Source: a virus. Taken from it: a stretch of 35,912 nucleotides of DNA. The notes under the pieces were generated by a model that saw nothing but the letters and a program-made list of their open reading frames with translations, was not told where the DNA came from and searched no databases. Numbering within the stretch: the stretch's first letter is position 1; each line of letters begins with the position of its first letter. Position numbers and translations under genes: made by a program. Where the stretch lies: positions 1-35,912 of the IMG/VR virus record IMGVR_UViG_3300049215_000363; one strand, 5' to 3'. Positions 4,312-29,405 of this stretch are shown in pieces.

Positions 4312-6249
4312 ATGGGCTGGACGATCCCGAACTCGACTGACGTACCGGCCAGCGCCCGCTACGGCAACGGCGTGATGTCGTGGCTGTTCCAATCAGACCT
4401 GATCGCCGCAGAACAGTCAGGCGAAGGCCTCGCCGTCATTTCCGGCTGCCAACTGCAAGCCGGCACGAACGCGGGCACCGTCAAAATCAGCGCCGGTACG
4501 GCGATGTGGGGCGCAGCGCCGGCAACCGTGAGCGCGCAAGACAACGTCGCCTGCGCCGCGAACGCCGACACGACAAACCCCCGCTGGGCGCTCTACGAGC
4601 TCGACAACACCGGCACGCTGCAATGCAACCTCGGGACCGCGGCCACAACACCGGTCCCACCGACCCCGACCGCAGGTCGTGTTGTCGTCGCGGCCGTGTT
4701 GATCCCGCCGAACGCGACGACCGTGTCGGGCGCGTCGGCACCGTACGCAGATGACGGCGCGATCAAGATCATCGACAAGCGGTGGTTCCGGGCGTCGGTC
4801 GCGTTCGAGCAGTTCTTTCAGCCGATCGCCGCGCAGGTCACGAACGGTGTGACGTACTCGACGTCGACGACGATCACCATGAACTCGAACGGCACGAACC
4901 TGAACACGTTGACCGGGACGCAGCCGCTCAACATTGCGAGCAAGACCGGCCTGTTGACCAAAGGTGCGGTGCGCGTCTCGCACGCCGGCGCCACCCACGT
5001 CGTCTCGTACAACGGGCTCGGTGCCGGGACGGGACCGTCCGGCGAGGATCAGCTGCTTAACTGCGACAGCTCCCCGCAAGGCGCCGGTGGTGGCACGCGC
5101 CCGAGCGTGGTGCTGTCGACGTCGGACCCGGTCAGCAACGCGCAGATCGTCACCTCGACCACCGCGAACGCGTTCACGGCCGCGCACATCGGCAGTTACA
5201 TCACTGGCGCAGCCCAGCTCCCGACGACCGCCAACTCGGGCACACACTTCGGCGTCATCGCCGCGTACGGCGACGCGGGCGCGGCGGGCACGTGGGCCGA
5301 CATCACGTGGCCGGCGACGTCCGGTGCGACCGGCCTGACGTTCAACTACTACCAGCTCGTGTTCTCGTTCGCGGTGCCGACCTGGGCGCGTTATGTGCGA
5401 TTCCGTGCGATCGGCGGCGGCGGCGGCGGCGGTTCCGGCTCGCACGTCGCAGCGACCGGCTCGGCCGCGCATGGCGGCGGCGCGGGCGGCGCGGCAGGCA
5501 AGTGCGACATCATCATGCCCGCAGCGTCGCTGCCGTCGACGTTGACGATCACGGTCGGATGCCCCGCGCCCGGCGGGCCGGGCGTGACCGCGAACGGCAA
5601 CGGCGCCGACGGCGCCGCGGGACAGAACACGACCCTCGTCGGGACCGCGCTGTCGGTCGAGATCGCGGGCGGCGGCACGCAAGGCTCCGCAGGCGTGACC
5701 GGCGGCGGCGCGGGCGGCAACAACGGGTTCGGGAACATCGCGGGCCAGCAAGACAACTACGCGCGTGCGGGCTCTTGGTCTGCGCCGTCAGGTTCGACGG
5801 TCGGGTCGGGCGGCAAAGGCGCCGACGGCACCGCACCCGCAGCTGCGCAGGCCGGCGCGTCGACGAGCAAAGGGCCCGGCGCCGGAGGTGGTGGTGGCGG
5901 CACGTCAGCCGCGAACGCGCTGCAAGCCGCAGGTGACGGCGGCAACGGCGAGACCGGCATGGGCGCGTTCGGTTCCGGGAACGGGGGCGGTTCGCACGGT
6001 GCGACCGTCGGCGCGAACGGCGGAAATGGTGCTGGCAACTCGGGCGACATCGCGAACGCCCCGCACGGCGGCGGTGGTGGCGGTGGTGGCGCGGGTGCGA
6101 ACACGTCGAACACGTCGGGCGGCAACGGCGGCAACGGCGGCGGGTACGGCTCCGGAGGTGCCGGCGGCGGCAACGGCATCGGGACCGGCACGAGCGGCGC
6201 CGGTGGTACGAGCGGCGGCGGCTGCGCACTCGTCGAAGCGCTCCCATAA
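4312..6249 (+). CDS. Glycine-rich fibre or receptor-binding protein
   Basis: This encodes 645 residues. The N-terminal part (1-165) resembles the particle-proximal part of actinophage minor tail proteins (ISAGTAMWG, ADTTNPRWALYELD, DDGAIKIIDKRW). From about residue 366 to 642 the chain is dominated by Gly-Gly runs with Asn, Ala and Ser, starting at GGGGGGGSGS. Long glycine-rich regions of this kind form polyglycine-II sheets in some phage adhesins (established for T-even-type gp38 tips). Start spacing to the previous stop is 4 bases, so translation is probably coupled. It is the best candidate for the main receptor-binding fibre. Confidence 0.8.
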   Translation: MGWTIPNSTDVPASARYGNGVMSWLFQSDLIAAEQSGEGLAVISGCQLQAGTNAGTVKISAGTAMWGAAPATVSAQDNVACAANADTTNPRWALYELDNTGTLQCNLGTAATTPVPPTPTAGRVVVAAVLIPPNATTVSGASAPYADDGAIKIIDKRWFRASVAFEQFFQPIAAQVTNGVTYSTSTTITMNSNGTNLNTLTGTQPLNIASKTGLLTKGAVRVSHAGATHVVSYNGLGAGTGPSGEDQLLNCDSSPQGAGGGTRPSVVLSTSDPVSNAQIVTSTTANAFTAAHIGSYITGAAQLPTTANSGTHFGVIAAYGDAGAAGTWADITWPATSGATGLTFNYYQLVFSFAVPTWARYVRFRAIGGGGGGGSGSHVAATGSAAHGGGAGGAAGKCDIIMPAASLPSTLTITVGCPAPGGPGVTANGNGADGAAGQNTTLVGTALSVEIAGGGTQGSAGVTGGGAGGNNGFGNIAGQQDNYARAGSWSAPSGSTVGSGGKGADGTAPAAAQAGASTSKGPGAGGGGGGTSAANALQAAGDGGNGETGMGAFGSGNGGGSHGATVGANGGNGAGNSGDIANAPHGGGGGGGGAGANTSNTSGGNGGNGGGYGSGGAGGGNGIGTGTSGAGGTSGGGCALVEALP

Positions 6250-24202: not shown

Positions 24203-24727
24203 GTGAGCGCGATCGCGACCGGCTGGGTCTGGGAGCACAGCCCCTACAAACACACGTCGAAAGCCGCGCTGTTGGTGCATCTCGCGATCGCGGATGTCGT
24301 CAACGACGCGCACGACAACGAGTTCTTCATGAGCACCTACAACCTCACAACCAAGCTCGGTTCGTGCGTATCACGCAACACCGTCGAAACCACGTTGCGT
24401 GACATGGTCGCGAGAGGACTGCTCGAAATCATCGAGTCGGGCGGCGCGCAACGAAAACCGACCCGGTACAGATTTGTCAGGACGACTAGCCAAGCCATTG
24501 GGCTAGCTAGCCAAATGAGCGGGCCATCACTAGCCAAATCACTTGGCGCGAACTTAAAGAAGAACTCAATTGATGAACTTAAGGGGACTAGCCAAGCCAT
24601 TGGGCTAGACGATTCGGCCTGCGACTGGTGCAACGACACCGGAACCGTCGCCAACCCCAAGACCGGCGAAACCAAACCGTGCCCTCAGTGCGCGCGATGC
24701 GCAGTCACTTCGAGCTCGGCGTCATGA
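24203..24727 (+). CDS. Winged-helix and zinc-finger DNA-binding protein, likely replication initiator
   Basis: This encodes 174 residues from GTG with gggagg before it. Residues 5-90 form a winged helix (SPYKHTSKAALLVHLAIADVV, FFMSTYNLTTKLGSC, RNTVETTLRDMVARGLLEI, then a wing with RKPTRYRF). A polar linker follows. The end has C140-x-x-C143 and C160-x-x-C163-x-x-C166, with a CDWCNDTG motif like that of DnaJ-type fingers. The linker is encoded by an iteron-like, AT-rich stretch (24484-24608). An origin inside an initiator gene is known from lambda O. Replication function is inferred. Confidence 0.72.
   Translation: MSAIATGWVWEHSPYKHTSKAALLVHLAIADVVNDAHDNEFFMSTYNLTTKLGSCVSRNTVETTLRDMVARGLLEIIESGGAQRKPTRYRFVRTTSQAIGLASQMSGPSLAKSLGANLKKNSIDELKGTSQAIGLDDSACDWCNDTGTVANPKTGETKPCPQCARCAVTSSSAS
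24484..24608. other. Candidate replication origin: iterons and AT-rich region
   Basis: Four copies of CTAGCCAA(A/G) begin at 24486, 24507, 24530 and 24588, with 21- and 23-base spacing between the first three, about two helical turns. The first and last lie in 23-bp exact repeats (24484-24506 and 24586-24608) that also contain an inverted CTAGCCC half-site. Between copies three and four lies a stretch of about 75% A+T (24551-24582) flanked by aacttaa at 24551 and 24576. This contrasts with a visibly high-GC genome. Confidence 0.6.
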
Positions 24728-24950: not shown

Positions 24951-26405
24951 ATGACCAAGAAGATCTCGCAGCTCACACCCGAACAATGGGCCGACGAACA
25001 AGCCTGGTACGACCAATGGCTCGCCACCGGGCTCTGCACCGAGCCGCTCGACTTCGAACGCGCCGCCCAGACCATCGCCACCATGTACCGCGAGCTCGGC
25101 GAACGGCCACCACTGTTCCTCTGGACCGACTCACCCGCGACTGCGCTGCTCTGCCACCTCGTCATCGCTGACGCAATGCAACGTGTCATCAACGCCAACG
25201 CGCGCGGGGACTCGTCGTTGTACTCGTCGTTGCGCTCGTCGTTGCGCTCGTCGTTGGACGCGTCGTTGCACTCGTCGTTGCGCTCGTCGTTGTACTCGTC
25301 GTTGCACTCGTCGTTGCGCTCGTCGTTGGACTCGTCGTTGCGCTCGTCGTTGGACTCGTCGTTGCACGCGTCGTTGGACGCGTCGTTGTACTCGTCGTTG
25401 GGCTCGTCGTTGGACTCGTCGTTGGACGCGTCGTTGCGCTCGTCGTTGGACGCGTCGTTGCACTCGTCGTTGGACTCGTCGTTGCGCTCGTCGTTGCACT
25501 CGTCGTTGCGCTCGTCGTTGCGCTCGTCGTTGCGCTCGTCGTTGTACTCGTCGTTGGACTCGTCGTTGGACTCGTCGTTGCGCTCGTCGTTGCACTCGTC
25601 GTTGGGCTCGTCGTTGCGCTCGTCGTTGTACTCGTCGTTGTACTCGTCGTTGGGCTCGTCGTCGTTGCGCTCGTCGTTGCGCTCGTCGTTGGGCTCGTCG
25701 TTGGGCTCGTCGTTGTACTCGTCGTTGTGGTCCTTCCTGTGGGGCCACATGGAGAGTTTCTGGCTCGCGTACACGACGTTCGGACCCCGCATCGGCGTGA
25801 AGTACTCGCCCAACGACATGCGCAAGCTCGGCTATTGGGTGACGCTCGCGCAGTCCTGCGGTTGGTGGTGGCCGAAACGGATCGTGTGCATCATCTCGAA
25901 CCGGCCCGAACGCGTTGTGATGGAACCAACAAACCAAGCGCGCTCGCTGCGCCTTCATTGCGAGGACGGACCGGCGTTGCGATACCGCGACGGCTGGGAA
26001 GTGCACGCCTGGCACGGCACGAACGTCCCGCGCGATCTCATCGAGGTCGGCTGGGACGCCAAGCGCATCGTGCAAGAACCCAACACCGAGATCCGACGAT
26101 GCGCGATCGAAAAGATCGGCTGGCCGAACTACCTGCATTCGCTCGGCGTGCGACCCGTACACGAATGCGACGATCCCGGAAACCCCGGCCATCGGCTCGA
26201 GCTCTACGACCTGCCCGACGTCGCGCAAGTGTTCGGCCCGCCCGTACGGCTCGTCGTGATGGAAAACGCGTCACTCGACCGCGACGGCCGACGACGCACC
26301 TACGCCGAAACCGTCCCAGCCGACATCCAATATGCCGACGAGGCACAAGCGTGGCAGTTCGACGTACCACTCGATTCCTACCGTGCGATCGCGCGGGCAA
26401 CCTGA
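24951..26405 (+). CDS. DUF6745-like protein with a 43-unit SSLx repeat
   Basis: This encodes 484 residues. Residues 1-85 (WYDQWLATGLCTEPLDFERA, IATMYRELGERPPLFLW) and 265-484 (ESFWLAYTTFGPRI, LRLHCEDGPALRYRDGWEVHAWHGTNVP, IVQEPNTEIRRCAIEKIGW) resemble the DUF6745 family of actinobacteria as I remember it. Between them residues about 88-260 are a tetrapeptide repeat S/A-S-L-x, where x is Tyr, Arg, Asp, His or Gly (Trp in the last unit). Such repeats occur in this family, but 43 units encoded by near-identical 12-bp DNA is extreme. No function is established. The start has cccacg before ATG, so it is not a strong ribosome-binding site. Confidence 0.72.
   Translation: MTKKISQLTPEQWADEQAWYDQWLATGLCTEPLDFERAAQTIATMYRELGERPPLFLWTDSPATALLCHLVIADAMQRVINANARGDSSLYSSLRSSLRSSLDASLHSSLRSSLYSSLHSSLRSSLDSSLRSSLDSSLHASLDASLYSSLGSSLDSSLDASLRSSLDASLHSSLDSSLRSSLHSSLRSSLRSSLRSSLYSSLDSSLDSSLRSSLHSSLGSSLRSSLYSSLYSSLGSSSLRSSLRSSLGSSLGSSLYSSLWSFLWGHMESFWLAYTTFGPRIGVKYSPNDMRKLGYWVTLAQSCGWWWPKRIVCIISNRPERVVMEPTNQARSLRLHCEDGPALRYRDGWEVHAWHGTNVPRDLIEVGWDAKRIVQEPNTEIRRCAIEKIGWPNYLHSLGVRPVHECDDPGNPGHRLELYDLPDVAQVFGPPVRLVVMENASLDRDGRRRTYAETVPADIQYADEAQAWQFDVPLDSYRAIARAT
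25212..25730. repeat. 12-bp tandem repeat array, 43 units
   Basis: The unit is tcg-tcg-ttg-NNc, with the last codon tac, cgc, gac, cac or ggc (tgg in the last unit), and gcg for the first tcg in a few units. The length of 519 bases equals 43 units plus one extra tcg at 25656-25664. The variable codon is limited to its first two positions. Such arrays change length by slippage or recombination. Confidence 0.95.
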
Positions 26406-26415
26406 AAGGACCGCA

Positions 26416-26853
26416 ATGCCCACAACCTTCGAAGAGGCGCTCGCACTTGCCGGCGTCACCGTTCCCGACCATCTCATCGCACAAGCCGAAGTGCCCGTCA
26501 TCTCCGACCAACCGCAACGTCAAGGCGACGTGTCGATCTGGCCGATCGCATGGCTTCCCAAAGGTGAACATCCCTCCGAGCTCGAGCTCTCACTTGCGAT
26601 GCCGATCCCTGACGAAGGCATCGCTGTCGTGCGCGGCGAAGCAACCGGCAACACGCATCTACTTCACGGTGCCGGCTGTCGATGGCTCGCCAAGATCGGC
26701 GGCGTCATGCTCGGCGCGCTGGTCGTGCCCGAAGGCACCGAAGCGCTTCTCATCCACACCGACGAGCACGGCGCCAACGCGATGGGCCCTGGCACGTACG
26801 TGATGAAGGGAAAGCGCGAACAGCAAGACGAAATCCGACGTGTTGCCGACTGA
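26416..26853 (+). CDS. Conserved partner of the DUF6745-like protein
   Basis: This encodes 145 residues, with gaaagga before the ATG. It is predicted beta-rich (GVTVPDHLIAQAEVPVIS, GEATGNTHLLHGAGCRW, GGVMLGALVVPEGTEALLIHTDEHGANAMGPGTYVMK) and ends KREQQDEIRRVAD. I recall a similar protein, ending PE.IR.VAD, next to DUF6745 genes in actinobacteria. It may bind its neighbour. Cellular role unknown. Confidence 0.62.
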   Translation: MPTTFEEALALAGVTVPDHLIAQAEVPVISDQPQRQGDVSIWPIAWLPKGEHPSELELSLAMPIPDEGIAVVRGEATGNTHLLHGAGCRWLAKIGGVMLGALVVPEGTEALLIHTDEHGANAMGPGTYVMKGKREQQDEIRRVAD

Positions 26854-29361: not shown

Positions 29362-29405
29362 TTGATACCAGTGATACCAGTGATACCAGTGGTTACATTG
29401 GTAAC
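29362..29405 (+). promoter_or_regulatory. Late control region: three 9-bp repeats and a palindrome
   Basis: gataccagt occurs three times in a row (29364-29372, 29373-29381, 29382-29390), followed by gttacattggtaac, a 5-bp palindrome around four bases. The repeats contain -35-like hexamers (ttgata, gtgata); gtgata at 29371-29376 is 17 bases from tacatt at 29394-29399. It may be an operator for a late regulator, the pac/cos recognition site, or both. Confidence 0.5.

Follow-up and report, generated by a model that had tools for sequence, protein, structure and literature searches.

A tetrapeptide-repeat array that differs between near-identical prophages is a phage-associated feature of DUF6745 proteins

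The window analyzed here, an entire IMG/VR virus record of 35,912 bases, belongs to a tailed phage, as profile searches identified genes for terminase, portal, head protease, capsid, tape measure, and integrase. On the plus strand, which carries all the features described below for this locus, a replication-initiation O-like gene (24,203–24,727; PHROG match, E = 1.4e-6) is followed by an open reading frame (ORF; 24,951–26,405) for a protein of 484 residues and by a gene of the phrog_27831 family (26,416–26,853). The 484-residue protein matches the Pfam family DUF6745 (PF20530) with E = 1.4e-29 and 103.3 bits, against a curated cut-off of 27, and the initial annotation, which had described the flanking domains as fitting this family, is thus upheld in that the protein is a true DUF6745 member. 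It consists of a conserved N-terminal domain (residues 1–87; 24,951–25,211), delimited by alignment with relatives with and without an array and by an AF2 model (pLDDT mostly 84–97 for residues 1–80), a tandem-repeat array (25,212–25,730), and the DUF6745 domain (residues 289–479; 25,815–26,387), delimited by the Pfam match and AF2. The N-terminal region aligns with phage, plasmid, and chromosomal DUF6745 members. The array itself was modeled at pLDDT 40–50 as a helix of low confidence. Fold searches with the full model gave no match in the PDB (best E, 0.62; best Z, 3.8), and a fold search among viral structures returned, at E < 0.001, one DUF6745 protein and two unnamed phage fragments. Matches to DUF668, DUF826, and DMT within the array were discounted as low-complexity, those from a profile search of PDB sequences as driven by the repeat only, and long minus-strand and off-frame ORFs across the array as by-products of the 12-bp period.

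The array comprises 43 in-frame 12-bp units encoding the tetrapeptide [S/A]SLx, with the consensus TCG TCG TTG [TCG][AG]C, and one extra TCG codon (25,656–25,658). Its extent and unit number, reported in the initial annotation, were confirmed by reading the units individually, by lag-12 identity (0.87 for the best 516-bp stretch; the highest value in the rest of the window was 0.44, and 200 codon shufflings of the ORF never exceeded 0.39), and independently by Tandem Repeats Finder (42.9 copies; score, 694). Codons 2 and 3 are TCG and TTG, respectively, in 43 of 43 units. Codon 4 is CGC in 14 units, GAC in 10, TAC in 7, CAC in 6, GGC in 5, and TGG in the last one (25,719–25,730), the SSLW unit, after which comes the conserved, W-rich beginning of the C-terminal region; these counts agree with the claimed restriction to Tyr, Arg, Asp, His, and Gly, all spelled NNC, before a final Trp unit, and the single in-frame inserted codon was also found as claimed. 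The description of codon 4 as the one variable codon holds in that it varies most, but codon 1 varies as well (TCG in 38 units and GCG in 5). Thus, variation is confined to bases 1, 10, and 11 of the unit, except that the terminal Trp unit also differs at base 12. The period is four residues, so the array differs from pentapeptide-repeat proteins with their five-residue period. Elsewhere in the window, two smaller tandem repeats were also seen, one at 6,126–6,203 (39 bp x 2) within a Gly-rich gene of the tail region, the other at 29,363–29,391 (9 bp, TGATACCAG, x 3.2).

Within the DUF6745 family, the array is associated with phages. When the window protein served as the sole query, a direct protein search of viral contigs found no relative; with an alignment of four homologues as the query, 66 viral loci and 80 bacterial-genome loci were fetched. 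An array lies between the N- and C-terminal domains in 51 of 62 readable viral members versus 4 of the best 80 bacterial-genome loci (Fisher p = 8e-23), a contrast whose size is approximate because the aligned query proteins bear arrays and the genome side consists of the best 80 matches only. One of these four genome loci is a prophage that is listed in IMG/VR too. Chromosomal DUF6745 (PF20530) proteins of actinobacteria resemble the window protein in both domains and in the adjoining phrog_27831-like gene, but nearly all of those found have no array and, unlike the window protein, a short non-repetitive middle. The unit cores are diverse (QV, QL, SV, SL, AV, AT, NL, and TV), each relative having its own unit sequence built on a common plan of two constant codons, one that is usually two-state, and one that is multi-state. 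A tree of 143 C-domains calls for 17 changes in array presence, of which well-supported branches force at least 12, and neighbors on the tree differ in unit type.

The phrog_27831-family gene adjoins DUF6745 genes in phages and chromosomes alike. Relatives of it occur in 104 of 157 loci, including 72–74 of the 78 chromosomal loci near DUF6745, where no other gene is as constant; one example beside DUF6745 is L080:5040-5483. Alignment of the encoded proteins revealed an invariant QGD, three His residues, and a conserved QRE...D end, and the window protein was modeled as beta-rich with a pLDDT of 90. As its PDB matches are weak (best E, 0.43; cupins first, Z 3.4), a cupin fold is put forward as a lead only, and searches of Pfam, NCBIfam, and PADLOC gave no significant match. 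The two genes look like a two-gene unit found in both hosts and phages, the array apparently being a phage addition; since they also exist as an array-less chromosomal pair, the family has another base function, a point against the gp54-like role favored below.

Base-level statistics were compiled for 58 arrays with 1,658 units. Mean heterozygosity was 0.05, 0.37, and 0.06 for the three bases of codon 1, 0.00 for each base of codon 2, 0.03, 0.00, and 0.02 for codon 3, and 0.58, 0.25, and 0.06 for codon 4. Thus, codons 2 and 3 hardly vary, codon 1 typically has two states (Asp/Ala or Asp/Gly), and codon 4 has several, with the variation lying in first and second codon bases and the third bases nearly invariant. 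Codon 4 ending in G encodes mostly Gly, Trp, Arg, or Glu and that ending in C mostly Asp, Arg, Tyr, His, or Gly, the second base being a purine in 1592 of the 1658 units. Moreover, piN exceeds piS in 56 of the 58 arrays, piS being zero in 42. Within an array, therefore, the constant codons are homogenized while codon 4, usually with codon 1, stays mixed, and the mixture is almost solely amino-acid-changing. Codon 4 includes Arg in 56 arrays, and each of these uses either CGN or AGN, never both; a given residue state therefore seems to have originated a single time in each array lineage and to have spread by copying, without being generated anew. The order of units along the arrays is close to random (lag-1 z = -1.8), with repeats slightly over-represented at lags 5, 8, and 10, a pattern that block duplications would produce. 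The arrays carry a small negative net charge (median, -0.23 per unit).

Arrays of this class expand, contract, and reorder. In two Mycobacterium abscessus prophages (L003 and L024), the array is flanked by identical DNA for 2,427 bp on the upstream side and 3,633 bp on the downstream side, and a third (L027) matches both exactly over that downstream stretch; nevertheless, the three prophages carry 46, 19, and at least 20 units, respectively, with only short blocks in common and in different orders. A further array, of 62 units (L017; 98.5% downstream identity), has no block of four or more units in common with these three. Similarly, two Nocardia farcinica strains with flanks 99.1–99.9% identical have 38 and 15 units (strict count), and a metagenomic pair (L206 and L237; 99.4% over 482 bp) has unrelated unit orders. 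Because identical flanks accompany different arrays, unit number and order must change far faster than point mutation accumulates. The capacity for expansion and contraction predicted in the initial annotation is therefore borne out for the class: the relatives' arrays are not identical, and both repeat number and order differ between the strains compared. For the window array itself, of which no close relative was found, we infer the same variability from these relatives. As a separate observation, the gene of N. farcinica NCTC11134 is present in two records (L004 and L005), and its copies are distinguished by two single-base deletions, which put one of them out of frame, perhaps through sequencing errors or decay of that copy.

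An array of the same kind is known from gp54 of mycobacteriophage Tweety (also Che8 gp57 and PMC gp51; cluster F1), in which 48 12-bp tetrapeptide units have two constant codons, an invariant Ala-Ala, two variable codons, and fixed third bases (PMC2884959). The authors of that study in 2007 regarded the pattern as consistent with selection for variation and such repeats as perhaps commoner in phages than recognized (PMC2884959). According to two reviews, Tweety mutants that escape the defenses of the Phrann and MichelleMyBell prophages have more or fewer repeats, which tune counter-defense (PMC9262239, PMC8549241), and the relative placement of the two gp54 ends has been proposed to depend on repeat number (PMC9262239). 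In our reading of gp54, the two constant codons are followed by GGG/TGG/CAG and AGC/TAC. The DNA before the array is identical in Tweety, DeadP, Taj, and KristaRAM (0 mismatches in 426), of which the arrays have 50, 40, 32, and 18 units, respectively, counting the two end units; the N-terminal part of gp54 is present in 162 phage records. The window array resembles that of gp54 in its fixed third bases and varying first and second bases, with codon 1 varying in 5 of 43 units only. As classes, the DUF6745 and gp54 arrays also share conserved N- and C-terminal ends, differences in unit number and composition between phages with near-identical ends, and the setting of an accessory gene in a temperate siphophage. 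They differ in the constant pair, Ala-Ala in gp54, and in the flanks: gp54, which is without a Pfam match, gave no significant match to the HMMs of the DUF6745 N- and C-terminal domains and partner, and none of four neighboring genes compared with the partner matches it. Judged from these sequence comparisons, the window protein is a non-member of the gp54 family that carries an array of the same kind. The primary paper on Tweety counter-defense is reportedly Dedrick 2017. PRDM9 zinc-finger and TALE arrays, too, are near-identical DNA repeats that undergo concerted evolution with diversity in a few specificity codons, their modules being much longer than tetrapeptide units and having known nucleic-acid contacts; the likeness to the tetrapeptide arrays is one without homology. 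The VR2 of bbp36 in Bordetella phage BMP-1 is likewise an in-gene repeat whose copy number varies among isolates, in a dispensable gene, but it is described as a 24-bp element with three alternative spacers, and no tetrapeptide unit with variable codons is described (PMC2884959).

The explanation we favor, with a probability of about 0.5, is that the window protein is a recombination-tuned phage accessory protein that acts like Tweety gp54. Two conserved end domains would be joined by a fast-shuffling tetrapeptide array, the shuffling being driven presumably by out-of-register recombination or slippage between units, for which their 8–9 constant bases may supply the homology; as the unit is four codons, the changes remain in frame. 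Selection would maintain the residue mixture, and array variants may retune counter-defense against the defenses of other prophages or of the host. Counter-defense is demonstrated for Tweety and is suggested for DUF6745 proteins by analogy, the function being transferred by architecture only because the DUF6745 domains and partner have no sequence homology with gp54. Our literature search found no counter-defense assay for any DUF6745 protein and no paper naming the family. Among 18 array phages, single-strand annealing proteins were found as RecT in 2 and ERF in 5, with none in the window, and since they are not universal we do not attribute the shuffling to a phage recombinase.

The array might instead be a biophysical spacer, that is, a long flexible or helical rod of tuned length in which the codon-4 mixture serves solubility and counters aggregation, and no partner reads the individual residues. 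The broad residue classes shared by otherwise unrelated units (R, G, W or D, R, Y, H, G), the nearly random unit order, the low-confidence AF2 helix, and the suggestion that repeat number positions the gp54 ends relative to each other (PMC9262239) are all consistent with such a rod; however, a spacer alone leaves unexplained the two or more codon-4 states per array with third bases almost fixed, and we consider it rather unlikely. A neutral minisatellite, in which a tolerated linker slips and homogenizes with its residues unselected, would account for the large differences in unit number between strains with identical flanks and for the weak excess of repeats at the lags of block duplications. 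Yet neutral homogenization would make synonymous sites as variable as codon 4, whereas piS is zero in most arrays, and the same codon plan stands on at least two unrelated scaffolds; the excess of piN over piS already disfavors this explanation, which appears improbable.

The constant scaffold with restricted variable residues, the fast turnover of order, and the concentration of amino-acid-changing differences at variable codons would also fit a modular recognition code like those of TALE and PRDM9, with every unit using its variable residue to touch a single element of a linear target and shuffling changing what is recognized. A module of four residues is far shorter than those of known codes, however, and the slightly negative charge lends no support to a nucleic acid target, making a code very unlikely. 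Variation concentrated in two bases of one codon could further point to targeted mutagenesis, for example by a diversity-generating retroelement rewriting codon 4, but the reverse transcriptase profile PF00078 found nothing in the 18 array phages, including the window, while its controls were positive, and there is no adenine-specific pattern. Moreover, the purine preference at the second base of codon 4 departs from random codon replacement, and the unmixed Arg codon families are expected of duplicated units rather than of fresh mutation. The missing reverse transcriptase and the unmixed Arg codons therefore argue against targeted mutagenesis, to which we assign next to no weight. Assembly artefact, finally, comes to mind as short-read assemblies can collapse or break inside such arrays, and some contigs do end within one, for example the two ends of IMGVR_UViG_3300032897_000003 (L165 and L248). 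Contigs L016, L020, L027, and L032 also begin or end in the array, as if repeats or population heterogeneity broke the assembly. Nevertheless, reading frames remain open, and comparable arrays occur in the M. abscessus prophage L003 (Illumina, with Nanopore in some cases), in the two N. farcinica strains (L005 and L026), and in sequenced M. smegmatis phage isolates. These isolate genomes support the earlier view that the array is probably not an artefact, an origin that we regard as extremely unlikely.

Returning to the recombination-tuned protein, two scans for the DNA pattern yielded 172 further array-bearing viral stretches, some on contigs already counted; of the 122 that were readable, 107 lie within DUF6745 ORFs and 15 elsewhere. 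A non-DUF6745 protein common to two contigs (L226, minus strand; L277, ORF from 1949) contains a QV/QM tetrapeptide array and has no significant Pfam match. Phages may thus have put shuffling tetrapeptide arrays repeatedly on unrelated scaffolds (DUF6745, Tweety gp54, and at least the one unnamed protein of L226 and L277), as a widespread, reverse transcriptase-independent device for diversifying arms-race proteins, where recombining a limited set of 12-bp units would take the place of targeted mutagenesis; we offer this tentatively, as somewhat short of an even chance. The Tweety-type array was known before, and new here is the same plan on the unrelated, widespread DUF6745 scaffold, in well over a hundred phage contigs, shuffled between prophages that are identical apart from it. 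Overall, arrays of this type are present in hundreds of phages. Should the function prove transferable, these proteins would form a broad class of fast-tuning phage proteins, hypervariable without a reverse transcriptase, and DUF6745 would have a testable role. Besides these, short separate ORFs composed nearly entirely of QV tetrapeptide units, some starting MKSVK-, were seen in L170 and L181 (IMGVR_UViG_3300025889_000291), L207, and L242.
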